Of a stretch of DNA of 42,112 bases, positions 1-24,493 are shown piece by piece. The DNA comes from a virus, in IMG/VR virus record IMGVR_UViG_3300029953_000068, positions 1-42,112 of that record, one strand, 5' to 3'. Both the position numbers and the translations under genes were made by a program. The notes beneath the pieces were generated by a model. The model saw nothing but the letters and a program-made list of their open reading frames with translations, had not been told where the DNA came from and did not search any database. Within the stretch, counting starts at the first letter, position 1; every line of letters starts with the position of its first letter.

Positions 1-14
1 ATCTAACAGGTAAG

Positions 15-293
15 TTGAGTGAGTCTACCGATGGGAAACAAAAGAGACTACACCCATCGGCATTGGTTAACATTCAAGAGTTTCTAAGGACGTTCGAGTT
101 CAAAAATATCACGAACGATTCCGAACTCGCCAGTGTATGTGAGACAATCGACGGTATGGTGAGAGGATTGGACGTTGATTATCTCCGCGACAACAAAGCA
201 TTCAAAGAAGAGCTTGCTACAAAGATGGTAGCTGTAACCCAGTCTCTCGAAACTTTGGTAGAGAACACCCCAATCCGCCGGTTCCGAGACTAA
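15..293 (+). CDS. Small hypothetical phage protein with RRFRD tail
   Basis: A 92-residue, mostly helical soluble protein with no family I recognise. I place the start at TTG 15 because AACAGG lies just upstream; an earlier start outside the window cannot be excluded. The C-terminus reads PIRRFRD. Nearly the same tail ends two other unrelated small proteins in this window (4097-4537 and 6997-7398), so it may be a docking or sorting tag. It is the last gene before a strong terminator, so it closes an operon that starts to the left of the window. Function unknown. Confidence 0.7.
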   Translation: MSESTDGKQKRLHPSALVNIQEFLRTFEFKNITNDSELASVCETIDGMVRGLDVDYLRDNKAFKEELATKMVAVTQSLETLVENTPIRRFRD

Positions 294-327
294 GACTAAC
301 AAACAAATGGCCTTACCAGAAACACTC

Positions 328-361
328 GCCCTATCGGACAATCCGATAGGGCATTTTTTTT
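328..361 (+). terminator. Rho-independent terminator
   Basis: A perfect 10-bp stem (GCCCTATCGG / CCGATAGGGC) with a 5-nt loop is followed by an A and eight T. It sits 35 nt after the stop of the 15-293 gene and ends the left operon. Confidence 0.93.
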
Positions 362-369
362 GCTCAATT

Positions 370-441
370 TGTAAACGTTTACATGAAAACGTTTTCACGT
401 TGACCGGTATACTCGAAACATCTTTTGAGAAAACGTTTCCT
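370..441. promoter_or_regulatory. LacI/GalR-type operator-like palindromes, left cluster
   Basis: Two perfect 14-bp palindromes lie back to back: TGTAAACGTTTACA (370-383) and TGAAAACGTTTTCA (384-397). A third, imperfect site is centred at 434/435. The form matches the TGNAANCGNTNNCA type of site bound by LacI/GalR-family regulators, including CcpA cre sites. No LacI-type repressor gene is visible in the window, so the binder would be a host regulator or encoded elsewhere. The third site (425-440) is an exact 16-bp inverted copy of 771-786. Confidence 0.55.
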
Positions 442-509
442 ATTAGTAACGGTCTATACGCTATTGCGCAAAGATAAAAACGGTTTGGGATATACTAGGG
501 TATCAGGGT

Positions 510-662
510 ATCAAAAAGTCTAAGCGGCTCTACCACGTGGCTGCAATTGCCAACAATCGGTATTCCAATCGAGTATGGTATACGCTGGATTATCCTAAAA
601 AGAGTAAGGCCATTCGGGAATCCGGCAAGGGCACGATCCTGTACCTCATTCGATTACCCTAA
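510..662 (+). pseudogene. Protein-like 50-codon ORF lacking ATG, GTG or TTG start
   Basis: An open frame of 50 codons plus stop reads like a small basic phage protein (KKSKRLYHVAAIANNR near the start, KGTILYLIRLP at the end). The frame is open upstream to 450 but has no ATG, GTG or TTG. The best start would be ATC 510 with AGGG about 9 nt upstream. Either it uses a rare start codon, as the 8758 gene seems to, or it is a decayed gene that lost its start. It lies between the two clusters of LacI-type palindromes. No family recognised. Confidence 0.35.
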
Positions 663-769
663 CGGCCATTCTCGATTAAAAGACCATGGTGAACCTGCTA
701 CAAAAAAGTGATACCCTGATACGTCCTAATCAGGTTTATCTTCCCCTATTAGTGTTCGCGCTAGCCAAC

Positions 770-810
770 GGGAAACGTTTTCTCAAGTCCCTATATTGTA
801 AACGTTTTCA
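770..810. promoter_or_regulatory. LacI/GalR-type operator-like palindromes, right cluster
   Basis: Two further AAACGTTT-centred sites: an imperfect one at 770-783 and TGTAAACGTTTTCA at 797-810, one base from a perfect palindrome. With the left cluster (370-441) they bracket the 510-662 ORF, an arrangement that would permit DNA looping. The role is inferred from form alone. Confidence 0.5.
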
Positions 811-829
811 GTAAAGTTCTCTATATTTT

Positions 830-861
830 AGAGCACTCTATAGAGTAGAGTGCTCTATTTT
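830..861. terminator. Strong hairpin, possible terminator
   Basis: A perfect 11-bp stem (AGAGCACTCTA / TAGAGTGCTCT) with a 5-nt TAGAG loop, followed by ATTTTAT on the plus side. The tail is a weak U-tract, so it could be a terminator or a structured element of the control region. Confidence 0.55.
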
Positions 862-902
862 ATAATAAAGTAGCCGGTCAAAGTTCTGCCGAGGTACCAA
901 TT

Positions 903-916
903 GTTCCACGTGGAAC
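903..916. promoter_or_regulatory. parS-like centromere palindrome
   Basis: GTTCCACGTGGAAC is a perfect 14-bp palindrome that matches the form of bacterial chromosomal parS sites bound by ParB (GTTYCACGTGRAAC type). The window encodes a ParB-like protein at 11817-12680. Whether that protein or the host ParB binds here is unknown. A CCACGTGG core also occurs at 533-540, but its flanks do not match parS and it lies in the protein-like ORF. Confidence 0.6.
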
Positions 917-958
917 GTCACACTATACGCATACGTGATGCGTGTACCGTAAACTCTC

Positions 959-1057
959 TAGGTACTTAGGTACTTCGGTACTTCTCTAGGTACTCTAATA
1001 GGCACTACCATAAACTTTTTAGGTACTATATACGATACCATAAACTTCTTAGGTACT
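959..1057. repeat. TAGGTACT iterons
   Basis: Five exact copies of TAGGTACT start at 959, 967, 987, 1020 and 1050. Two one-mismatch copies start at 975 and 999. The last two exact copies are the ends of a 22-bp repeat (1006-1027 and 1036-1057, one mismatch) containing CCATAAACTT. Such iterons are typical of replication origins or of autoregulatory binding sites. Confidence 0.6.
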
Positions 1058-1074
1058 CATGTATGGGTCGTAAA

Positions 1075-1096
1075 GATTTCCACAAGATTTCCACAA
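1075..1096 (+). repeat. 11-bp tandem repeat, DnaA-box-like
   Basis: GATTTCCACAA occurs twice head to tail at 1075-1085 and 1086-1096. Each copy contains ATTTCCACA, which matches the DnaA box TTATCCACA at 7 of 9 positions. The 11-bp period is about one helical turn. It supports, but does not prove, an origin here. Confidence 0.45.
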
Positions 1097-1113
1097 TTTT
1101 CTCAAAATAAGTG

Positions 1114-1141
1114 TTGACATGCCCAACAGACGTGCTATTCT
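1114..1141 (+). promoter_or_regulatory. Sigma70-like promoter
   Basis: TTGACA (1114-1119), a 16-bp spacer and TATTCT (1136-1141). It would start transcription about 110 nt upstream of the 1261 gene and probably drives the rightward small-gene region. Confidence 0.6.
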
Positions 1142-1260
1142 AGGTACATCAGAAACGAAGGGAGCGGCAAACAATGGTGCGGAATGTTTATCGGAATTGA
1201 GAAAGACGGTCACACTCATTCCTAACAAAACATCAAACATCTTTGCAGAAAGGATAACAA

Positions 1261-1535
1261 TGGGTTACTACATTCAGACCAACGCAGCACACAACAAAGC
1301 AGACTACATTGTGGGACACTATGATGGTGAGTTTTTGGCAAAAGCGCCATCGTCCTATGAGGACATACCGCAATTTAAGGCTCTCATAGCCGTAGTGGAC
1401 AACGGGCCGTTTGAGGCAGCGGGATTCTGCTACAACAAGTCGGAGTTTGAAGCTTTTACCAATCCGTCCGATCCGCGCCCCATCCAATATGTCCTTATAG
1501 ATAGGGACTTAGCGGAATACCTCACAAACTTTTAA
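1261..1535 (+). CDS. Conserved-type hypothetical phage protein (MGYYIQ family)
   Basis: A 91-residue protein beginning MGYYIQTNAAHNKADYI. A similar N-terminus is familiar from unannotated small phage proteins. I chose ATG 1261 over the in-frame ATG 1119 because GAAAGGA lies 8 nt upstream of 1261, and because the upstream part overlaps the promoter and reads unlike protein. No membrane segment or catalytic motif is seen. First gene of the rightward operon downstream of the 1114 promoter. Confidence 0.8.
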
Positions 1536-1540
1536 CAAGT

Positions 1541-1668
1541 TTTGCGCTTGCAAATAAAAAATGCTGACAAAAGGCAACCTCTTATGCAAAAGAGATCACA
1601 AAGCAGCAGCCTCTATGCATCAGGAATTCGGAGTAACCAGTACGGATACGTTCGATTGCAAGCGCAAA
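1541..1668. repeat. 13-bp inverted repeat with 102-nt loop
   Basis: TTTGCGCTTGCAA (1541-1553) is the exact reverse complement of TTGCAAGCGCAAA (1656-1668). The loop holds a 38-codon ATG-started frame (1561-1677) that lacks a ribosome-binding site. The element abuts a second, larger inverted repeat (1673-1872), and the pair fills the gap between two genes. Confidence 0.75.
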
Positions 1669-1672
1669 CGCG

Positions 1673-1872
1673 ATTAACAGGGTACCATTCATGACCGGTG
1701 AAAACAAGCGGAGCGAAGCTACCATTCTGGTACGGCTAGTCTCCCCTGACGGTTGAAAATCCTTACCATTCATGACCGGTGAAAACAAGCGGAGCGAAGC
1801 TACCATTCTGGTACGGCTAGTCTCCCCTGACGGTTGAAAATCCTTACCGGTCATGAATGGTACCCTGTTAAT
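1673..1872. repeat. 27-bp inverted repeat enclosing an 81-bp tandem duplication
   Basis: Bases 1673-1699 are the perfect reverse complement of 1846-1872. Inside, an 81-bp unit is repeated exactly twice (1683-1763 and 1764-1844), and the first bases of a third copy run into the right arm. Each unit can fold as nested stems: ACCG/CGGT outside, GGAG/CTCC next, and TACCA-TTC-TGGTA innermost. It may be a structured RNA, a REP/MITE-like element or a recombination product. The duplicated minus-strand reading frame follows from 81 being divisible by 3. Bases 1873-2054 show no gene; a 7-bp hairpin (1989-1995 / 2011-2017) is the only other structure there. Confidence 0.85.
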
Positions 1873-2054
1873 AACAAAAAACTAATAACAGGTGCAGCAC
1901 AGCGGGAGCCTAATTAGAACGGTAATTGCGGTGATGGTCTTATTTACCAACCCGCCCCGTCATCTGGCTTCCGTGATAGTGAGTTAAATGGTATGATGAG
2001 AGTGGCGAAGCATACCAGCCTGTTATCAAACAAATTTGGGTAGTGTCTTTTATC

Positions 2055-2109
2055 ACTAATTAGTTACTCACAACCCACAAGCTGTGCTTATTGTGAGTAA
2101 CTAATTAGT
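2055..2109. promoter_or_regulatory. 19-bp AT-rich inverted repeat upstream of a small gene
   Basis: ACTAATTAGTTACTCACAA (2055-2073) is the exact reverse complement of 2091-2109, with a 17-nt spacer. The second arm ends 28 nt before the ATG at 2138. It has no T-run, so an operator or a leader-RNA hairpin is more likely than a terminator. Confidence 0.65.
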
Positions 2110-2137
2110 TGTAAAATCCACAATGAAGGGAACGCAA

Positions 2138-2308
2138 ATGGAAGTATCACCCGCGATCAAAGGCCAGCTTACCAAGGCGGTAAAGACTGGTAAAAACCGT
2201 CAATCCGTAACCAACGCGGTACGTACAATATACCGCAAGTTTATGCCCACACAGCAAGCCAAACATGCCACAAAGAAGTTTATGGCAGAAAGGGTTACGG
2301 TTAACTAA
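2138..2308 (+). CDS. Small basic hypothetical protein
   Basis: A 56-residue, strongly basic protein (many Lys and Arg spread along its length, few acidic residues), so nucleic-acid binding is possible. I start at ATG 2138 because GAAGGG lies at a good distance upstream; the in-frame ATG at 2123 overlaps that site. It lies just after a 19-bp inverted repeat that could control it. No recognised family. Confidence 0.65.
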   Translation: MEVSPAIKGQLTKAVKTGKNRQSVTNAVRTIYRKFMPTQQAKHATKKFMAERVTVN

Positions 2309-2310
2309 CA

Positions 2311-2544
2311 ATGCCTAGCTCAGTGTACACTCCAGGGCTTCAAAAATGGACAATCGTTGGTATGGATAACGTGTCCACTCCTATTAGCGATCTATGGTTC
2401 AACACCAACCACTCATGTGAGGGTCTGGACTCAAGCGAGATGAGGGACAGCGCACAAGACTTTCTCGACTCGCTCCGACAATTGGGAGTAAACCGCCTGC
2501 CAAGCATTGACGCGCTTATCAGAGATTTTGAGGATAGGCTCTAA
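2311..2544 (+). CDS. Small hypothetical protein
   Basis: A 77-residue acidic protein with a helical C-terminal half (AQDFLDSLRQLGVNRLPSIDALIRDF). ATG 2311 follows the previous stop by two bases but has no clear Shine-Dalgarno site; an inner ATG at 2359 is an alternative. Translational coupling to the upstream gene is likely. Function not recognised. Confidence 0.6.
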   Translation: MPSSVYTPGLQKWTIVGMDNVSTPISDLWFNTNHSCEGLDSSEMRDSAQDFLDSLRQLGVNRLPSIDALIRDFEDRL

Positions 2545-2547
2545 GCG

Positions 2548-2612
2548 TTTGTAGTAGCTACCAATACTACAAAGCGTATAGCGGTACGGGCCGAAAAGCG
2601 TACCGCTATACG
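2548..2612 (+). terminator. Two tandem hairpins, possible terminator or processing site
   Basis: A 9-bp stem (TTTGTAGTA / TACTACAAA, 2548-2573) is followed at once by a perfect 14-bp stem (2575-2588 / 2599-2612) with a 10-nt loop. No U-run follows, so this may be a factor-dependent terminator, an RNA processing signal or a transcript-stabilising structure. Confidence 0.5.
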
Positions 2613-2646
2613 TATTATCAACAATTTAGCCAGAATCGAGATTACC

Positions 2647-2946
2647 ATGAAAAACCTTGAACCAACTATTCTAATCCAAGAGGGAGTAGACTTTGTGGGA
2701 AAGTTCGATGATCATTCCCACTATGAAGAACAACACCAGCCCGGCTTCTGTCCGTTCGATCCTGAGAGCGTTATAACAGGAGCCGAAATCCAAGAGGGGT
2801 TTACGTTCACTAACTCCAAAAGAATTTACAGCAATCTCGCATGGTACGAATGGGTTACAAAATACGGACCCAATGCAGGATTTCTTGCGCGTGTGTTCCC
2901 CCGTCGATTTCTCCCAACCATCGCAGACTACCCGGAGGTAAACTAA
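2647..2946 (+). CDS. Hypothetical phage protein
   Basis: A 99-residue acidic and aromatic-rich soluble protein without recognisable motifs. ATG 2647 lies 35 nt after the double hairpin; the ribosome-binding site is weak (GAGAT). Its stop codon TAA shares one base with the ATG of the next gene, so the two are translationally coupled. It carries PRRF near its C-terminus, but not as the terminal tail seen in three other proteins here. Confidence 0.65.
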   Translation: MKNLEPTILIQEGVDFVGKFDDHSHYEEQHQPGFCPFDPESVITGAEIQEGFTFTNSKRIYSNLAWYEWVTKYGPNAGFLARVFPRRFLPTIADYPEVN

Positions 2947-3242
2947 TGCTCAACACTAGCCCCGCACCCCGAAACGGGTACGTGTTTCCTTACCCCGCTA
3001 CACTTCCCGACTCCGAAAAGCCCAAGCACTCCAACCATGTTACATCGCGCTCAAGCAGCACCGTGATGTTCCGCGTTATCAGCAATTCTTTATCAGACCG
3101 TGAGATTATGGTAAAGAAGTTTAACGGAACGCTGTACGCGGTTACCGAAAACGCTTTTAACGTAAAAATCCCTGCACATTACCAAGAAGAGGTAATCGAG
3201 TGGCTTGACGATTGCGATAGGGATTTTGTCGGGCCATGGTGA
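2946..3242 (+). CDS. Hypothetical phage protein
   Basis: A 98-residue protein. I use ATG 2946 because GGAGG lies 8 nt upstream and the start overlaps the previous stop by one base. The longer in-frame start at 2841 would lie deep inside the preceding gene. The N-terminus is Pro/Ser-rich; the C-terminal half (KKFNGTLYAVTENAFNVKIP) looks like a small beta fold. No family recognised. It ends just upstream of the promoter for two tRNAs. Confidence 0.7.
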   Translation: MLNTSPAPRNGYVFPYPATLPDSEKPKHSNHVTSRSSSTVMFRVISNSLSDREIMVKKFNGTLYAVTENAFNVKIPAHYQEEVIEWLDDCDRDFVGPW

Positions 3243-3251
3243 AAATAATCC

Positions 3252-3299
3252 TTGACACCGCGAGGCTACTAGTGTATGCTGTACATAGCTAGTAGCCTC
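3252..3299 (+). promoter_or_regulatory. tRNA promoter with overlapping inverted repeat
   Basis: TTGACA (3252-3257), a 17-bp spacer and TATGCT (3275-3280). A perfect 11-bp inverted repeat (3262-3272 / 3289-3299) has its left arm in the spacer and its right arm at or after the start point, where a repressor could act. The two tRNA genes begin 17 nt downstream. Confidence 0.65.
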
Positions 3300-3315
3300 T
3301 AGCTAACACTAATAC

Positions 3316-3392
3316 CGGCCTGTAGCTCAATTGGTTAGAGCAGTGGACTCATAATCCATTGGCTTTGGGTTCGAGTCCCAACGGGCCGACCA
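3316..3392 (+). tRNA. tRNA with CAT anticodon, probably tRNA-Ile (AUA-reading)
   Basis: A complete 77-nt cloverleaf: acceptor CGGCCTG/CGGGCCG, D-arm GCTC/GAGC, anticodon arm GTGGA-CTCATAA-TCCAT, T-arm TTGGG/CCCAA with TTCGAGT loop, discriminator A and encoded CCA. The anticodon CAT could mean Met or lysidine-modified Ile. The C4-G69 and C5-G68 pairs, as in E. coli ileX, are those favoured by the lysidine synthetase TilS, so I lean to Ile(CAU). First of two tRNAs behind the 3252 promoter. Confidence 0.93.
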
Positions 3393-3406
3393 ACACTAAG
3401 GCATTA

Positions 3407-3480
3407 GGAACCATAGCTCAAGGGTAGAGCATTGCCCTTTTAAGGCATCGGCGAGGGTTCGATCCCCTCTGGTTCCACCA
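3407..3480 (+). tRNA. tRNA-Lys (TTT)
   Basis: Acceptor GGAACCA/TGGTTCC, D-arm GCTC/GAGC, anticodon loop CTTTTAA with anticodon TTT, T-arm GAGGG-TTCGATC-CCCTC and encoded ACCA. The outermost anticodon-stem pair is a T-T mismatch. Cotranscribed with the CAT tRNA 14 nt upstream. Confidence 0.93.
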
Positions 3481-3510
3481 ACTCAAAACATCTTAACAGG
3501 AGGCACAGTA

Positions 3511-3753
3511 ATGGATGTTACGATTGCCGTAACGAGCAAAGAGGCCGAGATGATTTTGTTCGTAATTGCATTGCGTTCAAAACAAGCTGGAATATCCGAG
3601 CAAGCTCAAAAAGATGCTTTGGAAGTTGGAGAGCATCTTAACGATATGTTTGAAGACGCCTTTGGATGGGATCATTTTAACAGAATGGCCCACACACGAA
3701 AACCTATTAAGCGTGTAACCGTTACATGCTATGACTATCCTCCAACATCTTAA
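3511..3753 (+). CDS. Small hypothetical protein
   Basis: An 80-residue protein with a short N-terminal strand and a central helical part (SKQAGISEQAQKDALEVGEH). AACAGGAGG gives a strong ribosome-binding site for ATG 3511. It follows tRNA-Lys by 30 nt, so it probably shares the tRNA transcript. No recognised domain. Confidence 0.75.
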   Translation: MDVTIAVTSKEAEMILFVIALRSKQAGISEQAQKDALEVGEHLNDMFEDAFGWDHFNRMAHTRKPIKRVTVTCYDYPPTS

Positions 3754-3767
3754 CAGAAAGGGATATT

Positions 3768-3914
3768 ATGCCAAGTCTTATTTCATGTAAAGGCTGCAAG
3801 CGGGTCGTGTTGATCGAAGTGGAAATCAAGAACACTAACCCCGCCCTAGCCAACCCCGGCCACTCCACCACCACTAATAGCGTGTTACAATGCGCGTGTG
3901 GTAAATACCTCTAA
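3768..3914 (+). CDS. 48-residue zinc-ribbon-like protein
   Basis: The ATG at 3768 has AGAAAGGG just upstream. The 48-residue product has a CKGC pair near the N-terminus (C7, C10) and a CAC pair near the C-terminus, with hydrophobic strands between, like a treble-clef or zinc-ribbon knuckle. It may bind zinc and act as a small adaptor or nucleic-acid-binding protein; that is inference. It sits 14 nt after the previous gene. Confidence 0.7.
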   Translation: MPSLISCKGCKRVVLIEVEIKNTNPALANPGHSTTTNSVLQCACGKYL

Positions 3915-3947
3915 TGCTTTTAACCCTTTGGTACTAAGGAGACTACC

Positions 3948-4100
3948 ATGATTTCTCTTTACCATAACATCATTTACCAACTATCCCGGCTCAAAACCCC
4001 CGAATGGTTTGTAATTTGTATGTTTATGGTAGGCGTTGCGTATAGTCTTTCAGCAGTATACACGCTTGTCAAACTAATGTGGACAGGGAGGGCCAAATGA
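3948..4100 (+). CDS. Small single-pass membrane protein
   Basis: A 50-residue protein with one predicted transmembrane segment at about residues 20-46 (FVICMFMVGVAYSLSAVYTL in its middle) and a basic C-terminus. AAGGAG lies 6 nt before ATG 3948. Its stop overlaps the next start as ATGA, so the two are coupled. It probably inserts in the host inner membrane; role unknown. Confidence 0.75.
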   Translation: MISLYHNIIYQLSRLKTPEWFVICMFMVGVAYSLSAVYTLVKLMWTGRAK

Positions 4101-4537
4101 AATTCAACGTAGGGGATATAGTCTTCCCTGTAAAAGACAGAATAGAAGACTGGCCGAATACGCCTATCCAAAAGAATCCCCTTAAGGAGATAAGTGTTAG
4201 TGGTGCTCGTGTGCTAAAGGTTATACCCTACAGTCCAATTGAGTTACCGTCCGGTCCCGCTGAACACTGCGTTATGACTATAGAGGGTGTTACCCCAACC
4301 TGGATTAGCAGCTATTGGTTCGACCCTGACATACCAAGACACTATTGGAAGCTTCAAAAGGTACATAAAGCAGCTACTAAAGCTACTAAAGCTACTAAAG
4401 TTACCCCAATCGACAGTAGCATTGCGTTCAAAGCCACCACACCGCCAATCCCGAAAAGCTTTTTTCCACAAAAGACTTCGGAGGTAAGTTCCGTTAACGT
4501 TAACAACCTACACGTAAGGAGATTCCGAGATGCGTAA
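4097..4537 (+). CDS. Hypothetical protein with repeat linker and RRFRDA tail
   Basis: A 146-residue protein. ATG 4097 overlaps the previous stop and has GGAGGG upstream, so I prefer it to ATG 4079. The N-terminal part (MKFNVGDIVFPVKD) looks like an SH3-like or KOW-like beta fold. A linker made of three exact 9-bp repeats (ATK units, 4373-4399) follows. The last residues are VRRFRDA, the tail motif shared with the 15-293 and 6997-7398 proteins. The AGG AGA codons of that tail also form the Shine-Dalgarno site of the next gene. Function unknown. Confidence 0.75.
   Translation: MKFNVGDIVFPVKDRIEDWPNTPIQKNPLKEISVSGARVLKVIPYSPIELPSGPAEHCVMTIEGVTPTWISSYWFDPDIPRHYWKLQKVHKAATKATKATKVTPIDSSIAFKATTPPIPKSFFPQKTSEVSSVNVNNLHVRRFRDA
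4373..4399 (+). repeat. Three in-frame 9-bp tandem repeats
   Basis: GCTACTAAA is repeated exactly three times inside the 4097-4537 gene and codes ATK units of a Lys-rich linker. It is prone to slippage, but gains or losses of 9 bp would keep the frame. Confidence 0.9.
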
Positions 4538-4985
4538 AGCGACCCACAAAGAAAATTCACAAAGTCTCTATCATGGTACAGTAAACATTTTTGTACCAAA
4601 TATCCTTAAAGAGGGCCTAAAGCCCATTAAGGCAAATCGCTGGAAGATTCACGATGTAAAAAGCGGCCATGATCCGAGCACCGACGATAATGATGGCTTT
4701 GTTTATCTGGCTCCTGAAAAAAAGCTTGCCGCAGAATTCGCAGAAGCAAAGGCACAATACCTAAAGAGAAAGTCTTTAGGTGCTTATAAACCAACTAACT
4801 TCATTATGCTAGTAGCTAAGGACGAAGATGCGCCCGTAGTTCCAGACGCTAAACCCGTTGTACTTAGCATAAACATTCCATTCACAAAAGAGTGGAAACA
4901 TACCTTCTATGCAGACCCCGATTGTCCTGACGCGTATCGTTTCTTCGGCACAATCCCACCGCAACTAATAACTGTTTTGGAGTAA
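4530..4985 (+). CDS. ADP-ribosyltransferase-fold protein (ART/Tpt1-like)
   Basis: A 151-residue protein whose layout suggests the ADP-ribosyltransferase fold. LYHGT near the start (H15 would hold NAD) is followed by ILKEGLKP, then FVYLAPEKKLAAEFA (the Tyr-bearing second motif), and near the end FFGTIPPQLITVL, resembling the last strand of RNA 2'-phosphotransferase or PARP-type folds. The usual third-position catalytic Glu is not obvious. It could modify host proteins or nucleic acids, as T4 Alt and ModA do by a different subclass, or remove 2'-phosphates. ATG 4530 lies inside the end of the previous gene with AAGGAG upstream. Confidence 0.55.
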   Translation: MRKATHKENSQSLYHGTVNIFVPNILKEGLKPIKANRWKIHDVKSGHDPSTDDNDGFVYLAPEKKLAAEFAEAKAQYLKRKSLGAYKPTNFIMLVAKDEDAPVVPDAKPVVLSINIPFTKEWKHTFYADPDCPDAYRFFGTIPPQLITVLE

Positions 4986-4986
4986 T

Positions 4987-5062
4987 TGGAGGATTAGTAA
5001 CAATGGATAACAAAAACAAGAAGCTTCGCAAGTTCGTAGTAAATATTATTACTAATCCTCCA
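4987..5062 (+). promoter_or_regulatory. Long-range hairpin that hides the ribosome-binding site
   Basis: TGGAGGATTAGTAA (4987-5000) pairs perfectly over 14 bp with 5049-5062. The left arm contains the GGAGG of the 5003 gene, and the start codon lies two bases into the 48-nt loop. The right arm is inside the coding region. Folding would block initiation; a ribosome already translating would open it. Confidence 0.7.
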
Positions 5063-5164
5063 CTCTATATGATAGAGTTGGGACTAGCACAAGTTGAGTA
5101 CAAACAAGTCGAGATAACTGGGTACTCGCTGTCCGACGCAAAAGAACGCGCAGGGATCGAGTAG
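5003..5164 (+). CDS. Small hypothetical protein with RBS-sequestering hairpin
   Basis: A 53-residue protein (MDNKNKKLRK at the start, YSLSDAKERAGIE at the end). GGAGG lies 10 nt before ATG 5003. The first 20 codons include the complement of the ribosome-binding-site region, so translation may be self-controlled. No recognised family. Confidence 0.7.
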   Translation: MDNKNKKLRKFVVNIITNPPLYMIELGLAQVEYKQVEITGYSLSDAKERAGIE

Positions 5165-5187
5165 ATCAAAATAAATCTTAAATATCC

Positions 5188-5216
5188 TCGACAACCTAAC
5201 GAAATTGTGGTACCAT
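5188..5216 (+). promoter_or_regulatory. Sigma70-like promoter candidate
   Basis: TCGACA (5188-5193), a 17-bp spacer and TACCAT (5211-5216), located 33 nt before the ATG of the 5250 gene. Each hexamer departs from consensus, so this is moderate evidence. Confidence 0.45.
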
Positions 5217-5249
5217 AAGAGGGTAACACTCAAAAAGAAAGGACGAACG

Positions 5250-5597
5250 ATGCGACGAAAACACAGACCTCTTGAGGATCAAGCAACGAGAGACAAAAGA
5301 GTAATCACGCCCGACTTGCTAACCAATGCCCTAACCGTTCTACAGGATAGCCGTCAGTTTGATTCTGCAAAGCTCTTAGCCAGACGCGACCTTGCCAACA
5401 GACTTATGACAGGCAAGCAAGAACAAGAGATGGTAGAGCGTGGGCTGTCTTTGATCGACCTCTTATCCGGTGGACTCTCTTCAATGGACGAACCTTGGGC
5501 GTACAACATACTTAATAGCTGGAATGAAAGACTCTCCGCTATTGGGTCTAAACATGAGATATTCGGCTATGTTCCCACCTTGAGTAACGTAGCTTAA
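5250..5597 (+). CDS. Hypothetical helical protein
   Basis: A 115-residue protein with a basic N-terminus (MRRKHRPLEDQATRDKR) and amphipathic helices after it. I use ATG 5250, with AAAGGA 8 nt upstream, rather than ATG 5205, which lies inside the candidate promoter. No recognised domain. The basic start would allow nucleic-acid contact, but this is speculation. Confidence 0.7.
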   Translation: MRRKHRPLEDQATRDKRVITPDLLTNALTVLQDSRQFDSAKLLARRDLANRLMTGKQEQEMVERGLSLIDLLSGGLSSMDEPWAYNILNSWNERLSAIGSKHEIFGYVPTLSNVA

Positions 5598-5631
5598 CAA
5601 TAACTTCTTTACCCCAAACAAGAAAGGGTGT

Positions 5632-5916
5632 ATGATGTTTCTCCTAAAAGCCACTAAACGTTTGAAGGCTACTCTAAGGAGAGCGGGAGCGAGTAAGATT
5701 CGCCTACCGTCCAGATATAAACAATTTCTTTGCAAACACGCTATTGTACGACATTTAGTTGTACTAGGTGGCTTCGTTGTGATAGTCATTGTCACAGAAA
5801 AGGTTTTTCATAACGAGGTTCTTTCTCATGGCATCGAACTAGCAGCGGGTAGTATGTTCGATAACTTTGTCACAGCGTTTGAACACGCCTTTTTCGCGGC
5901 AGAAACCGTAGAATAA
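5632..5916 (+). CDS. Small membrane protein with basic N-terminus
   Basis: A 94-residue protein: a strongly basic segment (residues 6-36), one hydrophobic membrane span at about 38-57 (VVLGGFVVIVIV) and an acidic C-terminal part. Positive-inside logic puts the N-terminus in the cytoplasm. ATG 5632 and ATG 5635 are adjacent; AAAGGG is better spaced for 5635. Function unknown; last gene before the next promoter. Confidence 0.7.
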   Translation: MMFLLKATKRLKATLRRAGASKIRLPSRYKQFLCKHAIVRHLVVLGGFVVIVIVTEKVFHNEVLSHGIELAAGSMFDNFVTAFEHAFFAAETVE

Positions 5917-5929
5917 TTCAAAAAACCTC

Positions 5930-5964
5930 TTGACAAGTAGGATAGATTTTGGTATCCTACTTGT
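5930..5964 (+). promoter_or_regulatory. Promoter with perfect 12-bp operator-like palindrome
   Basis: TTGACA (5930-5935), a 17-bp spacer and TATCCT (5953-5958). ACAAGTAGGATA (5933-5944) and TATCCTACTTGT (5953-5964) form a perfect 12-bp inverted repeat with an 8-bp spacer that covers part of the -35, the spacer and the -10. A dimeric repressor bound here would block RNA polymerase. It drives the gene at 5997. Confidence 0.75.
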
Positions 5965-5996
5965 GAAGTCGAAACAAACAAAACGAAAGGAACAAC

Positions 5997-6581
5997 ATGA
6001 CCGCAGCAGCAGTACACGAACCTAGCTTCCAAGACCTTCAATCTGAGATTGCTTCTCAGGTTAGCAATAACAACTTTGAGAAAGAGTCGGAAGTTAACGA
6101 AGCTTTCGGCCAAACGTGTGACCTTTGTGGAGGAGATCACGAAACCCCCAATGTGTTTTCCGTATTGAGCGACAGCCCGAATGATCCAGAAACCGAAAAA
6201 AGCTTTACCTCAGAAACCTTTATAGAAACTTTTATGGAAAAGATGAGGGGCATTATAGATAATGCAAAAGTGTGTGTCCTTCACCAGATCATCGATGGGC
6301 AGTCCAATGAGCCGCTTACCGTGACATTTTCCCCCGAACAAGCTCAGATTATCCGAGCCGCCCTTGCACGCTTTGAGATGGAAAGCGCGGGTGACTTGTC
6401 ACCAGAAAACTACCCCGGCAACTTGTCAGATGCTTTTGACGAAAACGGAAAGCCGACTGATGGGCTTCTCCTTTCAGGGATAGCCTACGCTTTTGTCAAA
6501 GATGCGGTGTTTTCCGATGCCGAAGACCTCATCGGCCCCATCACCGCAGTCGCAAACCGAGTAAGCGGTGATAACAACTAA
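5997..6581 (+). CDS. Acidic hypothetical protein, single-gene operon
   Basis: A 194-residue, very acidic protein with a CDLCGGDH knuckle at about residues 41-48 and a middle segment rich in Ser, Glu and Thr. ATG 5997 has AAAGGA 7 nt upstream. It has its own operator-bearing promoter and its own terminator hairpin, so it is controlled separately. Acidity plus separate control recalls host-takeover or DNA-mimic proteins, but nothing in the sequence proves that. No recognised family. Confidence 0.75.
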   Translation: MTAAAVHEPSFQDLQSEIASQVSNNNFEKESEVNEAFGQTCDLCGGDHETPNVFSVLSDSPNDPETEKSFTSETFIETFMEKMRGIIDNAKVCVLHQIIDGQSNEPLTVTFSPEQAQIIRAALARFEMESAGDLSPENYPGNLSDAFDENGKPTDGLLLSGIAYAFVKDAVFSDAEDLIGPITAVANRVSGDNN

Positions 6582-6611
6582 CTTCTCATAGCTTTACAAA
6601 ACATTTTAATA

Positions 6612-6655
6612 GCACCCTAGCAGATATTTAATAGAACCTGCTAGGGTGTACTTTT
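6612..6655 (+). terminator. Hairpin terminator
   Basis: A perfect 11-bp stem (CACCCTAGCAG / CTGCTAGGGTG, 6613-6623 / 6638-6648) with a 14-nt loop, followed by TACTTTTA. It ends the 5997-6581 operon; the U-tract is short. Confidence 0.7.
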
Positions 6656-6670
6656 ACTAACGCCACGGCC

Positions 6671-6700
6671 TTGACAAATGGCATCGAACCGGCGTATATT
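6671..6700 (+). promoter_or_regulatory. Sigma70-like promoter
   Basis: TTGACA (6671-6676), an 18-bp spacer and TATATT (6695-6700), 46 nt before ATG 6747. Imperfect direct repeats (AATGGCATCGA and AATGGCACCGA) lie on either side of the -10 and start point and may be regulator sites. Confidence 0.65.
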
Positions 6701-6746
6701 GGTATTAGTGACGGTACCAATGGCACCGAGGAAGGAGAAATCATTG

Positions 6747-6995
6747 ATGACTCAAGCGGGGTCTAATACTGACGAGAGCGAAACCCAAAGCAATACATTT
6801 GTACGCTTTAAGAACAATTGCTACAAATGTACTAACCGTAGGACAATACCGGGTAGTGCACACTCATTTTGCGTCAATTTTGATGCGAATGTTACCATGG
6901 ACTCTCATGGGGTAGAACACGGATGGGCATTCTGGCCCCTTGACTTCGATCCGATATGGGTAAAAGCTTGTACCGGATTCACACCGAAAGGATAA
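6747..6995 (+). CDS. Conserved phage zinc-binding protein
   Basis: An 82-residue protein with the pattern NNCYKCTNRRTIPGSAHSFC, then WAFWPLDFDPIWVKACTGF. This arrangement (CxxC, iPG-x-H-x-x-C, GW-x-x-WP-x-x-FDP-x-W-x-x-x-C) is one I recognise from unnamed phage proteins with a probable zinc knuckle. I start at ATG 6747 with AAGGAG upstream; the in-frame ATG at 6678 lies inside the promoter. First gene of the transcript from 6671. Confidence 0.8.
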   Translation: MTQAGSNTDESETQSNTFVRFKNNCYKCTNRRTIPGSAHSFCVNFDANVTMDSHGVEHGWAFWPLDFDPIWVKACTGFTPKG

Positions 6996-6996
6996 C

Positions 6997-7398
6997 ATGG
7001 ATACCAAAGAAGTAGTAAATGAGTTACAAGCAAGGCTTGATCCTGCAAACCGTAAACCTGCAAGCAGTAATCTTGATTTGCTTAGTGTGCTTAGTGTGTT
7101 TGACGTTATTCCTCGCATTCCTCGCGTACACTGTACGGATGGGTTTAGCATGAGCGTACAAGCACAACACACGGCTTACTGCTCACCACGCGATAGTAAA
7201 GGTCCGTGGTACGAAGTTGAGGTAGGTTTTCCGTCCGAACGGGTAGAAGATTTCATGCCCTATATCGACGACGAATATGAACCAGACTCAACTGAAGCGG
7301 TATACGGTTTTGTGCCTATTAACATTGTAGCAGATGTTATTATAGCACATGGTGGCTTTAAGGGTTACAACCATCAACCAATAAGACGTTTTCGGTAA
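6997..7398 (+). CDS. Conserved phage protein (GFSMSVQA family) with RRFR tail
   Basis: A 133-residue protein. The core VHCTDGFSMSVQAQHTAYCSPRD, then VEVGFPSE, then VYGFVPINIVADVIIAHGG belongs to a common phage and prophage family of unknown function. Near the N-terminus two exact 9-bp tandem duplications encode LSVLSV (7081-7098) and IPRIPR (7108-7125). The protein ends PIRRFR, the tail shared with two other proteins in the window. The stop is followed directly by the GGAGG of the next gene. Confidence 0.8.
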   Translation: MDTKEVVNELQARLDPANRKPASSNLDLLSVLSVFDVIPRIPRVHCTDGFSMSVQAQHTAYCSPRDSKGPWYEVEVGFPSERVEDFMPYIDDEYEPDSTEAVYGFVPINIVADVIIAHGGFKGYNHQPIRRFR

Positions 7399-7410: not shown

Positions 7411-7917
7411 ATGAAAGCTACATACGAACAACTGCAACAAGCTACACAGGCCGCTTATGGAACATATCACCCCAATAGCGAGTGGTGGAGAGAGAACGCC
7501 ACGTGCTGCGGTAGGTGGCTGAGCGTAGTAGACGCCGCTATCCGCACTTTGCCCGAACCGGAGCCGGAGCCAAGCAAAGAGATTGAAGCACTAAAGGAAA
7601 CTCTTAGAAACGTTGTGGCCGAGCGCGATAATCTTCACTGGCAGCAAGAGACTCTACTGGCAAAGCACCGGCGCGACTTGGAGCGCATGGCGCAGGAATT
7701 GTCGGACGAGGAATACAAGTCCTACATGGACTTCGACGCGTGGGCAAGAGCATCGCTCAACCACGTCTTGCAGCTTCGTCTACTCGAAATCCTGCCCCAA
7801 CCCACCGAGGCAGAACTGATTGCGAGGGAATTGTATCTTCACTCAGACTACGCTGTGACTTTAATCGAGGTACAAGCGGTCCTTGACGCCCAAGCCAGAT
7901 TGGAGAAGAATAAGTGA
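7411..7917 (+). CDS. Hypothetical coiled-coil protein
   Basis: A 168-residue protein with a Trp-rich start (NSEWWRENATCCGRWLS), a PEPEPEPS linker at about residue 50 and a predicted coiled coil at about 57-100. AAGGAGG upstream of ATG 7411 is strong. Its stop overlaps the next start (GTGA). Codon use looks more GC-rich than in neighbouring genes, which may reflect separate acquisition. No recognised function. Confidence 0.75.
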   Translation: MKATYEQLQQATQAAYGTYHPNSEWWRENATCCGRWLSVVDAAIRTLPEPEPEPSKEIEALKETLRNVVAERDNLHWQQETLLAKHRRDLERMAQELSDEEYKSYMDFDAWARASLNHVLQLRLLEILPQPTEAELIARELYLHSDYAVTLIEVQAVLDAQARLEKNK

Positions 7918-12753: not shown

Positions 12754-13212
12754 ATGATTAATCAAAAAAACCTAAGCAGACTTGCATGGAAGTTAGTAAA
12801 ACACTCTACGCTGTACGACCAAAATACGTATTTTCAGCAAAAGCACCATTGTGGCACAATTGGCTGCTTAGCAGGACACGCTACACTTCTTAGTGGTGTG
12901 CGAGTAAAAGAAGCTAAAGACTTCACAAACATGCAATACACTAATGCTGCTGCTGGCTTTCTTGGTATAGAAAATAGTGATGGGTATTTACTGGAAATAT
13001 TTAGGTTTGCGGGTGATTGGCCCGATGATCTATACTGTCTCTACTACAATGATAAGCCCTACACCAAAGTGTTAGCGGCTTTGTATGCGCTACAACGCTT
13101 GGATGTGAATGGAGACATATCTAAAGATTCTACTAAGGTATTAAATCCTTTACCAGAACAAATTGCTTACATACAAGATTTAATACAAAAAGACAAGGAA
13201 GGTCAAAAATGA
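12754..13212 (+). CDS. Phage protein with CGTxGCLAGH motif, first copy
   Basis: A 152-residue protein with HHCGTIGCLAGHATLLSG at about residues 32-49, the hallmark of a widespread unnamed phage family. The two Cys and His residues might bind metal; that is inference. The next gene is a paralogue, and both begin with the same sequence from the ribosome-binding site (AAGGAAGGTCAAAAATG) through the first ten residues. Its stop overlaps the paralogue's ATG. This is a tandem gene duplication. Confidence 0.8.
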   Translation: MINQKNLSRLAWKLVKHSTLYDQNTYFQQKHHCGTIGCLAGHATLLSGVRVKEAKDFTNMQYTNAAAGFLGIENSDGYLLEIFRFAGDWPDDLYCLYYNDKPYTKVLAALYALQRLDVNGDISKDSTKVLNPLPEQIAYIQDLIQKDKEGQK

Positions 13213-13712
13213 TTAATCAAAAAAACCTAAACAAACTTGCATGGAAGTTAGTAAAACACCCTGCACTATACGACCAAAATTTGTATTTTAATGCAAGAAC
13301 TCACTGTGGTACAGTAGGTTGTTTAGCAGGTCATTCTACACTTCTTAGTGGTGTAAGGGTAAAAGACGCTAAAACCTTTGGACCATCGGAGTATCGTGAA
13401 GTTGCTAGTAAGTTTCTCGGTATAATTGATAAAGATAATAACTCCCGGTGGTCGCGCCCCCAGATATTTATGGGAATAAATGACTGGCCTAGTGATTTAA
13501 GTAAGGTTTATTATAATACTAATCCCTACGTCAACGTATTAGCAGCCTTGTATGCGCTACAGCGTATGGAAGAGGACGGAGCCATTTCGCCCGACCCTAA
13601 CAAGGTACTAAACCCTTTACCAGAACAAATTGCTTACATACAAGATTTATATACAAAATTTAATACAAAAGGAAAGAATGAATCAACTACCTCAACTACC
13701 GAGCCAAGCTGA
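13209..13712 (+). CDS. Phage protein with CGTxGCLAGH motif, second copy
   Basis: A 167-residue paralogue of the preceding gene (THCGTVGCLAGHSTLLSGVR). The N-terminal 50 and C-terminal 45 residues are close (NPLPEQIAYIQDL in both), while the middle has diverged with an insertion. The protein adds a Ser/Thr-rich tail. The end of the gene overlaps the start of the exonuclease gene by 35 nt, which suggests the tail arose by reading into it. Function unknown. Confidence 0.8.
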   Translation: MINQKNLNKLAWKLVKHPALYDQNLYFNARTHCGTVGCLAGHSTLLSGVRVKDAKTFGPSEYREVASKFLGIIDKDNNSRWSRPQIFMGINDWPSDLSKVYYNTNPYVNVLAALYALQRMEEDGAISPDPNKVLNPLPEQIAYIQDLYTKFNTKGKNESTTSTTEPS

Positions 13713-22213: not shown

Positions 22214-24493
22214 ATGGAACAATACACACAAAATACAGCAGAGCCTCAAGATAAAAAAGCAAATCACCAAGCGAATGTCATACGCATTGAGGAAATCTTA
22301 CCGCATACTAACGCGGATAATCTTGAAATAATTCCTATCGGAGGTTTTCAAGTAGTTACTCGTAAGGGCCAGTTTAAAGTAGGCGATTTAGGGGTTTATA
22401 TCCAGCCGGATAGCATAGTACCTAAAAGTGAGACTTTTAAGTTTTTATGGGAAGGTCATGAAGATATTAATGGAGTAGTACCGACTAAGTATTTACGCAT
22501 TACTGTTAGGAAGTTTCGTAAGGAATGGTCTGAGGGGTTGCTATTACCAGTGTTTGATTTTCCACAATTACTTGATAGTGTACTAACAAATCATTTTGTA
22601 GAGTCAGACTATCCTGTTGGAACAGACGTATCAGACCTCCTCGGTATCACTCACTACGACCCTGATACTGGACGCGGTAGCACTGGCGATAACGAAAAGG
22701 TAATAAAAGGTGCTCCTAAACTAAAACGTAAGTATCCTACTACGTTGAAGGGTTGGTTTTTCTTTCTGCTTCATAAATTACGTCTACGAAGGGACGAGAA
22801 GAACTTTTCAGAAACCGTTAGTTTTCATGTACCAACATACGATGTAGAGGGGTTTAAGAATTATCCTAACGTGTTTAAGGACGGCGAACATGTCTTTGTG
22901 ACAGAGAAGATACATGGATGTGTAATAGGCTCAACCAAAGTTAGAATGGCAAATGGGACTAGAAAGTTTATAAGAGATATAGAAATAGGAGATGTTGTTA
23001 CAGGAGTAAATAAAGCAGGAAGTGTATCCTCTAGCAAGGTTGTTAAAACATACAACAACGGAAAGACAGAACAATGGTTGCGTGTGTCCGGTAAACGTGA
23101 AGGATTGGCAGGACGAGGTAACAGTTTCTTCGCAGTATACTGCACACCTGAGCATAAGTTTTGGGTAGTTGAAAAGCAAGAATTTGTAGAAGCAAAAAGC
23201 CTTAGTATAGGCGAACATGTACTAACACTTAGAACTGATTTAAGTCTAACGCCCGTTCAATACCAAGTAGTTTTAGGGAAACTGTTAGGAGATGGGCATC
23301 TTGCAACAGCAGTTAGTACCTCTGCACTTCACTTCGGGCATAGGGAAAAAGACAAAGATTACCTAAACTGGACTTTAAAAGGATTAGGGAACTTAGCAAA
23401 TCATAGAACCGATAATTATGTTAGTGGCTACGGAACTAATATGTTTAGAGGAAGTTCTATAGGAACGGGCTATCTTAAACAAGAATTTGAATGTTTTTAT
23501 GAAGGAGACAAGAAACAAGTTCCTTTTTGGGTAGAAAGTGAATTAACACCATTGTCTCTAGCTTTTTGGTATATGGATGATGGTAGCCTATGTCATAGTG
23601 ATGGGCAAGAAGACCGAGCATCTTTCGCTACTTGCGGATTCGACTATAAAAGTTGTACTATTTTAATTAAAGCGTTAGCAAGGTTAGGCGTAGAAGCTGA
23701 AGTGTCACAACACGATTATAATAGAATTGTGTTAAATACTGAAAACGCAGAACGATTGTTTTTATTAATTGCTCCTTATATACCAAAATGTATGCAAAGG
23801 AAACTGCCTGAACGCTACAGAGGAGGGGAAGGATGGTTACCAAACACTGAATCTGTTTATAAACCAGAGTTAGTATCAGTTTCTATTACAAGTATAGAAA
23901 GCGCTCCTACAATAACCTCTAAGAAGTATGATTTAGAAACAGAAACACATAACTACTTTGCTAATAACATTCTTGTACACAACTCGAACGCTAGGTATCT
24001 ATATCTTGACGGTGCGCAATACGCTGGAAGCCGTAACCTTTGGAAAGCGGCTGATAGTAATTGTGCATGGAGACGAGCATTAGTTGACAACCCTTGGATT
24101 GGAGAGTTTTGTAGGAACAATCCCGGTTATGTGCTTTGGGGTGAAATTACACCTACGCAAGGCGGTTTTGATTATATAACTAGTCCTAATCAAAAAGGAA
24201 AGATTCAATTTTTTGCTTTTGATGTTAGGACACCAAAGGGTGAATGGGAACCTAAAAATATAGCATGGCATCTTATAGACAACTACGGAGGACGTTTCGT
24301 TCCTGTTCTCTATGACGGACCTTACGACTACGATGTTATTAAGGGTATAGTAGACGGTAAGAGTGCAACGGGGGCAAACCACGTTCGTGAAGGAATTGTT
24401 ATCACTGCTTTAGATGATCGTACTGTTAGAGGACTTGGTAGGCCGCAGCTTAAAATAGTATCAAATTCTTTTCTTGAGAAAGATAGTAAGTAG
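22214..24493 (+). CDS. DRB0094-type RNA ligase interrupted by an intein
   Basis: A 759-residue precursor. Residues 1-235 and 591-759 form an RNA ligase of the DRB0094 group: an N-terminal OB-like domain (RIEEILPHTNADNLEIIPIG, GDLGVYIQPDSIVP), then the nucleotidyl motif EKIHG-SNARYLY. A 355-residue intein interrupts that motif between Gly235 and Ser591. The mature ligase would have 404 residues. Later motifs include VLWGEI and REGIVI, with QLKIVS near the end. It seals RNA, perhaps tRNA; it is a second ligase beside the Rnl1-like one. GAGGA lies upstream of ATG 22214. Confidence 0.88.
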   Translation: MEQYTQNTAEPQDKKANHQANVIRIEEILPHTNADNLEIIPIGGFQVVTRKGQFKVGDLGVYIQPDSIVPKSETFKFLWEGHEDINGVVPTKYLRITVRKFRKEWSEGLLLPVFDFPQLLDSVLTNHFVESDYPVGTDVSDLLGITHYDPDTGRGSTGDNEKVIKGAPKLKRKYPTTLKGWFFFLLHKLRLRRDEKNFSETVSFHVPTYDVEGFKNYPNVFKDGEHVFVTEKIHGCVIGSTKVRMANGTRKFIRDIEIGDVVTGVNKAGSVSSSKVVKTYNNGKTEQWLRVSGKREGLAGRGNSFFAVYCTPEHKFWVVEKQEFVEAKSLSIGEHVLTLRTDLSLTPVQYQVVLGKLLGDGHLATAVSTSALHFGHREKDKDYLNWTLKGLGNLANHRTDNYVSGYGTNMFRGSSIGTGYLKQEFECFYEGDKKQVPFWVESELTPLSLAFWYMDDGSLCHSDGQEDRASFATCGFDYKSCTILIKALARLGVEAEVSQHDYNRIVLNTENAERLFLLIAPYIPKCMQRKLPERYRGGEGWLPNTESVYKPELVSVSITSIESAPTITSKKYDLETETHNYFANNILVHNSNARYLYLDGAQYAGSRNLWKAADSNCAWRRALVDNPWIGEFCRNNPGYVLWGEITPTQGGFDYITSPNQKGKIQFFAFDVRTPKGEWEPKNIAWHLIDNYGGRFVPVLYDGPYDYDVIKGIVDGKSATGANHVREGIVITALDDRTVRGLGRPQLKIVSNSFLEKDSK
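22919..23983 (+). mobile_element. Intein with LAGLIDADG homing endonuclease
   Basis: Precursor residues 236-590. Block A begins CVIGSTKVRM with catalytic Cys1; block B is CTPEHKF with the T-x-x-H signature; LGKLLGDGH and LAFWYMDDGSL are the two LAGLIDADG helices; block F is KYDLETETHNYFANN and block G ILVHN ends in Asn355, followed by Ser+1. All residues needed for splicing are present. It inserts inside the ligase active-site KxxG(S) motif, the most conserved spot of the host gene, as inteins usually do. Confidence 0.95.

Follow-up and report, generated by a model that had tools for sequence, protein, structure and literature searches.

The IMG/VR virus record IMGVR_UViG_3300029953_000068 (42,112 bases, analysed here over its whole length as the window) encodes three proteins that end in closely similar tails built around the residues RRFR. 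These tails probably represent a C-terminal docking peptide that an AAA ATPase, a DUF3150 protein and a set of accessory proteins have in common, and by which all of them would bind one partner. As judged from its genes, the window represents part of a phage related to the acidobacterial phage Tunturi_3, which has been isolated; their primase-helicases share 56% identity. The window was compared with 43 related records in addition to Tunturi_3. A RecA identical to that of the window is present on contigs from several samples. No leftward extension of the window was found by matching at the DNA level, so the rest of the operon discussed below is unseen in this phage. The features concerned are as follows.

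3..293, plus strand: C-terminal part of a DUF3150-like protein (protein 1), cut by the window edge, assigned from its open frame and homologues
270..290, plus strand: tail PIRRFRD of the DUF3150-like protein, read from the sequence
4097..4537, plus strand: putative accessory carrier 1 (protein 2), 146 residues, ending VRRFRDA; no relatives detectable by homology searches, assigned from its tail
4514..4534, plus strand: tail VRRFRDA of carrier 1; AGGAG at 4517-4521 doubles as the likely Shine-Dalgarno (SD) sequence for the ATG at 4530
6997..7398, plus strand: putative accessory carrier 2 (protein 3), 133 residues, ending PIRRFR; no relatives detectable by homology searches, assigned from its tail
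7378..7395, plus strand: tail PIRRFR of carrier 2; TAAGGAGG at the stop codon is the SD of the gene at 7411

The three tails match in protein sequence and differ in codons, as the preliminary description of this DNA had noticed. Positions 270-293 read CCA ATC CGC CGG TTC CGA GAC TAA (PIRRFRD), positions 4514-4537 read GTA AGG AGA TTC CGA GAT GCG TAA (VRRFRDA) and positions 7378-7398 read CCA ATA AGA CGT TTT CGG TAA (PIRRFR). Among all open reading frames (ORFs) of at least 50 residues, counted from stop to stop, RRFR is limited to these three, and in each it lies 0–2 residues before the stop codon. Apart from protein 1, the window thus has two carriers. The expected number is 0.0044 when based on how often RRFR occurs internally in the related records, and 0.0035 when based on C-terminal composition.

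The same description took 15-293 for a small protein and the three carriers for equals, neither of which holds. Towards the left, the frame runs off the window without a stop codon; 96 residues are encoded between base 3 and its end, and the TTG at 15 is merely the first start-like codon of frame 3-293. Full-length homologues of 308–400 residues (stop to stop) occur in nine of the 43 related records and in Tunturi_3; the window protein aligns to their C-terminal third, with 31–43% identity in the nine records. Every one of the ten has R-K-F close to its C-terminus, where the window has R-R-F; the commonest form is GRKF[RK][DE], so that for protein 1 the tail is anything but missing from the relatives. 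One homologue (G017) passes the cut-off of the DUF3150 model (PF11348; 25.9 vs 24.9 bits) and two others (G031, G009) are sub-threshold; the window fragment alone, which covers the C-terminal part outside the region matched by the model, has no DUF3150 match in Pfam. The homologues are also related to genes annotated as DUF3150 on plasmids and in a cyanophage.

In relatives the DUF3150-like gene adjoins an AAA/MoxR-type ATPase gene; in the window the upstream gene would lie beyond the edge. Where it can be traced, the DUF3150-like gene follows an AAA ATPase of about 515 residues (PF00004), usually with genes for DUF1257 (PF06868) and DUF2997 (PF11211) between them, giving the order Cdc48-like AAA ATPase, DUF1257, DUF2997 and, last, DUF3150. 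The ATPase matches PF00004 with E=2.6e-11 and 1.2e-10 in relatives, with Walker A and B motifs present. On the strength of these homologues, protein 1 is probably the truncated, DUF3150-like core subunit of an AAA ATPase operon. In Tunturi_3, gp96 is the DUF3150-like protein, gp102 the DUF1257 protein and gp103 the ATPase. The ATPases of the relatives end in similar tails (GRKMR, GRKIRD, GRKVRA, GRRMKA, GRVVRFDEE, GRIIR and the like), and none was found on DUF1257 or DUF2997 in the relatives examined closely. The same four genes are held by plasmids of Candidatus Manganitrophus, where the ATPase, the DUF3150 protein and an unrelated protein of 847 residues end near RRLR, RKIR and RKIR, respectively. 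On one such plasmid, PRTRC genes (A, B, C and ThiF-like; L153:30830-34347) are found some 10 kb away from the operon.

A wider survey, made by scanning with an ATPase alignment, covered 80 loci from viruses and 45 from cells. The tails are found both in phages and in bacterial contigs of several phyla, and share the scheme R-x-[FILMV]-x-([FL])-[DE], written in local dialects such as RKFRDE, RAISFEE, RVIEFE or RKFKLE. The tail arginine is conserved in 58 of 58 DUF3150 and 60 of 60 ATPase homologues, and the residue two positions on is always hydrophobic, despite a mean column identity of only 27% (DUF3150) and 39% (ATPase). R-x-hydrophobic is found within the last 12 residues of 94% of the ATPases and 84% of the DUF3150 proteins, as against 18% and 23% of internal 12-mers. 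The ATPases have a further peculiarity. In 73 of the 79 operon ATPases, including the one at L158:10001-11548, Walker B (..VIIFMDEIEK..) precedes Walker A (GxPGxSKS), the remaining six being unclear; the related ATPases of L153 and L157 have the normal order. According to the structure model, which has high confidence here, this is a transposition of a segment inside the AAA domain.

Were the shared tail a matter of chance, as the preliminary description recognised, its motif would be no more frequent at C-termini than elsewhere in proteins, which is clearly not so. Across about 1,580 genes from 13 related records, 20 cases of R[RK]F[RK] lie within six residues of the C-terminus where the internal rate predicts 0.83, and six of RRFR where it predicts 0.08. 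The three richest phages have five carriers each (0.14–0.29 expected), and R[RK]F[RK] carriers are absent from five distant control records processed identically (G028, G037, G039, G040, G042). When the bodies were compared with their tails removed, they sorted into the DUF3150 family and several proteins unrelated to one another, together with a few small groups. A Cys/His-rich domain (..CxxC..FC..H.H..) recurs in tail carriers of acidobacterial phages (L168:4516-4854, L163:6537-7223, L100:5140-6267, L078:9015-9956).

The codons of the tails are variable (AGG AAG TTT, CGC AAG TTC, CGA CGC TTC and others). Because of this variation, selection at the protein level is a better explanation than a DNA element. 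AGG-AAG is used in 6 of 23 tails, many others use CGC-AAG or CGA-CGT, which have no SD character, and the overlap of a tail with the SD of the next gene is a feature of protein 2 in the window and is not general. On the codon and expectation data, a DNA repeat or SD artefact was judged insufficient as the source of the tails. The earlier proposal of protein-level selection is thus upheld by the invariant arginine in two diverged families, the free choice of codons, the unrelated carriers and the match of dialects within a genome.

Outside the acidobacteriophages the enrichment of R[RK]F[RK] is slight, reaching 2.4-fold across independent viral loci. As this is attributable to the differing dialects, dialect-matched tests were used, in which the dialect cores were picked by rule and carriers sought by regular expressions and by tail similarity with permutations; an expectation-maximisation motif search drifted to low-information patterns and was replaced by the regular expressions. 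In loci outside the discovery set, 12 local-dialect carriers were found at threshold 20 (3.0±1.7 when permuted) and nine at threshold 22 (1.5±1.1), in excess of all 60 permutations. Among the proteins encoded beside the ATPase, those of SWIM zinc-finger-like type have the tail in 22 of 22 loci; one of these proteins falls just under the Pfam SWIM cut-off, and the rest were recognised by iterative search and a CxC..CxH pattern. The dialect-matched carriers include a WGR protein and a DNA polymerase of family A, and in locus L275 the polymerase (DNA_pol_A, ..KRKFKLEEV), the DUF3150 protein (..GRKFKLEDED) and the ATPase (..GRKLKLDD) can be compared directly. In the window the tails of proteins 2 and 3 (RRFRDA, RRFR) are in the dialect of the phage's own DUF3150-like tail (RRFRD), and the best reading of 4097-4537 and 6997-7398 is that they are accessory carriers of the docking tail, as their C-termini indicate. 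No homologues of either were found in IMG/VR, the 43 related records or any of the fetched loci; a lone match of 19 residues in L002 was not convincing. The persistence of the tail among homologues, a point raised at the outset, can therefore be followed in protein 1.

Within a locus, the tails of the ATPase and the DUF3150 protein resemble each other far more than expected (similarity 4.66 vs 0.70±0.45 when permuted, with none of 5,000 permutations as high). The match holds when partners are restricted to loci having ATPases 35–60% identical and vanishes for ATPases more than 60% identical, as expected for close relatives. The partial Mantel correlation of the tails is small (0.11) and above all 2,000 permutations. 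Once the bodies of the ATPase and DUF3150 are allowed for, the similarity of the tails follows that of DUF1257 (partial r 0.22) and of DUF2997 (0.21); it hardly follows the DUF3150 body (0.01–0.05). A third small operon protein was rejected as a reader of the tail, as it does not track the dialect (−0.03).

AlphaFold2 models gave a mean predicted local distance difference test (pLDDT) score of 92.7 for the DUF3150 protein and 93.3 for the ATPase, with the tails at about 50 or below and unstructured, which would suit a peptide binding in trans. The closest proteins to the ATPase in the PDB are two-domain Cdc48/p97 proteins. A structure search with the model of the DUF3150 fold gave no relative in the PDB; the confidently modelled protein concerned (L158:13566-14456) had none at E≤0.1.

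The sharing of the tail, its invariance, its disorder and its covariation within loci fit a docking peptide with an operon-encoded reader. Its general form would be R-x-[FILMV]-x-([FL])-[DE], with RRFR-D as the dialect of the window phage, and it would belong to the operon of the Cdc48-like AAA ATPase, DUF1257, DUF2997 and DUF3150. Further copies in the local dialect would mark accessory proteins, namely the SWIM zinc-finger, WGR and DNA polymerase proteins and unrelated small proteins of acidobacterial phages, among them 4097-4537 and 6997-7398. A single partner may read all these tails, so gathering the ATPase, the DUF3150 protein and the accessory proteins in one complex. Since the dialect tracks both DUF1257 and DUF2997, and since both lack the tail in the relatives examined closely, one or both of these subunits are most plausibly the readers and are the leading candidates. 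The alternating hydrophobic pattern suggests that the tail is bound as an added beta-strand. The presence of DNA-related proteins among the carriers suggests that the complex would allow the ATPase to remodel nucleoprotein or replication complexes.

Several observations weigh against this interpretation. The arginine codons of protein 2 (AGGAGA, 4517-4522) also make a good SD for the ATG at 4530, a start codon within the tail, and, as proteins 2 and 3 have no homologues, conservation of their tails rests on no relatives. The rest of the operon is outside the window, its presence upstream being deduced from the gene order of relatives, and genes in the related records were called mechanically. 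Aligners can favour an arginine in a disordered tail, which makes the term invariant slightly optimistic. The partial correlations that point to the reader are small, the ATPase body also tracks the dialect (0.15–0.28), and the loci are related, which inflates tests of covariation. Finally, the reader might be encoded by the host, although this seems improbable. Such a reader could be a clamp, a polymerase or an HslV-like peptidase, which HslU binds by its C-terminus, and phage and plasmid proteins would dock on it. The occurrence of tails in phages and bacteria of several phyla would suit a host factor, and in three operon-holding genomes HslU ends in the loosely similar ..SRYIL or ..RQYIL (3 of 9 HslU tails recovered); with only this loose similarity, docking on HslV was rejected. 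The differences in dialect between loci, covarying with the operon genes, point to a reader encoded in the operon.

The tail could also be a substrate tag, gripped by the AAA ATPase or an adaptor so that the carrier is unfolded or disassembled, as ClpX does with ssrA, and the carriers might be removed at a given stage of infection. An unfoldase-like ATPase of the Cdc48/p97 type in the operon, unstructured tails and several unrelated carriers per phage are all consistent with this, but the tail is also found on every ATPase and DUF3150 homologue aligned, and a machine would not be expected to have its own core subunits as substrates; we consider a substrate tag unlikely. Of the functions first proposed for the tail (docking tag, degron or targeting signal), the docking tag is accordingly favoured, and the degron disfavoured because the ATPase itself carries the tail. 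Chance aided by translation signals is more doubtful still. On this view the tail of protein 1 would be characteristic of its family, and the other two proteins would have RRFR by coincidence, promoted towards gene ends by the SD sequence AGGAG, which codes for RR. While AGGAGA of protein 2 is suitably spaced to act as an SD for ATG 4530 and AGG-AAG recurs in the tails, the F-R-D part is left unexplained, the CGC-AAG and CGA-CGT tails have no SD character, relatives are equally enriched, and only 0.004 window carriers in the matching dialect would be expected. It is hardly credible that the tail is a cargo peptide for loading proteins into the capsid. Encapsulin cargo peptides usually take the form of such a C-terminal tag on unrelated small proteins, but plasmids and cellular contigs also have this tail, and its link is with the ATPase operon, not with capsid genes.

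The docking reading invites comparison with known C-terminal peptides. SSB is one protein whose C-terminal tail recruits many partners. The preliminary description drew this parallel, and the likeness is that of a short and disordered peptide at the C-terminus, recognised by a pocket, whereas the present tail is spread over many proteins and apparently has one reader. None of the carriers matches an SSB family in Pfam, and their tails are basic-hydrophobic-acidic, in place of the OB-fold, acidic tail and terminal hydrophobic pair of SSB. The C-terminal tail of p97/Cdc48 is bound by PUB/PUL cofactors. The operon ATPase, structurally closest to p97 in the PDB, likewise has a disordered C-terminal peptide, but the p97 tail is limited to the ATPase, and here it extends to DUF3150, SWIM and other proteins. 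With the ssrA/ClpX degrons the tail shares its position on unrelated proteins and the involvement of an AAA ATPase; it differs in being genetically encoded and present on the ATPase itself. Ycf46, Ycf35 (DUF1257) and DUF2997 occur in cyanobacteria and plastids, and, by gene neighbours, also place DUF1257 and DUF2997 beside an AAA ATPase; the extra DUF3150 gene, the shared tail and Walker B ahead of Walker A set the present operon apart.

In mycobacteria, the AAA ATPase Mpa and the unrelated ring Bpa/PafE dock on the 20S proteasome through C-terminal GQYL/HbYX motifs (PMC4254994, PMC8755798, PMC9599533). There too an AAA ATPase and an unrelated protein use a common short C-terminal peptide for one docking partner, which in our case would be the putative reader; the differences are the motif (R-x-hydrophobic-x-x-acidic), the larger number of carrier families and the lack of a proteasome-like partner in the operon. 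The tails do not have GQYL or hydrophobic-Tyr-X at the extreme C-terminus and often run on by further residues. GQYL of Mpa/Bpa and the p97 tail are conceptually the closest known cases, from which motif, carriers and operon all differ. In the open-access papers searched, nothing relevant to the module was found, none named DUF3150, and DUF1257 and DUF2997 were mentioned in passing only. C-terminal docking peptides are known, but one common to an ATPase, DUF3150, SWIM and orphan phage proteins was not found described in the literature searched.

One neighbouring gene adjoins a carrier.

4530..4985, plus strand: gene after 4097-4537, overlapping its tail; weakly KptA/ADP-ribosyltransferase-like by sub-threshold Pfam and PHROG matches; not a carrier

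Its best matches are Pfam PTS_2-RNA (E=0.004, below cut-off) and PHROG 5470 (E=0.003), so that it is possibly KptA/ADP-ribosyltransferase-like; gp90 of Tunturi_3 is annotated as an RNA 2'-phosphotransferase. Downstream of the 6997-7398 gene, the SD of the next gene (TAAGGAGG) begins at the stop codon. Elsewhere, the window has seven scattered tRNA genes (3316-33198), including an Ile tRNA with anticodon AAT, and a tandem pair of paralogues of 152 and 167 residues (12754-13712) that both begin MINQKNL.. and have much sequence in common. The ORF at 22214-24493 is RNA-ligase-like, with an intein-like insertion (KIHG/CVIGSTKVRMANGT ... NNILVHN/SNARYLYLDG). At 1690-1855 a region that appears gene-free holds a direct repeat (taccattcatgaccggtgaaaacaagcggagcgaag...), about 75 bp long, with partly inverted copies on its flanks.

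More tentatively, a whole family of AAA machines (AAA with transposed Walker B, DUF1257, DUF2997, DUF3150 and SWIM) in phages, plasmids and bacteria may use a genome-specific tail dialect as a membership badge. Phages might then badge unrelated proteins, even their DNA polymerase, and badge and reader could coevolve, each machine collecting its own parts only. For DUF1257, DUF2997, DUF3150 and this ATPase, four families still uncharacterised, the tail is an initial clue to function. By their last residues, orphan phage genes may be assigned to a machine, and a direct experiment becomes possible, that of finding what binds the tail peptide.

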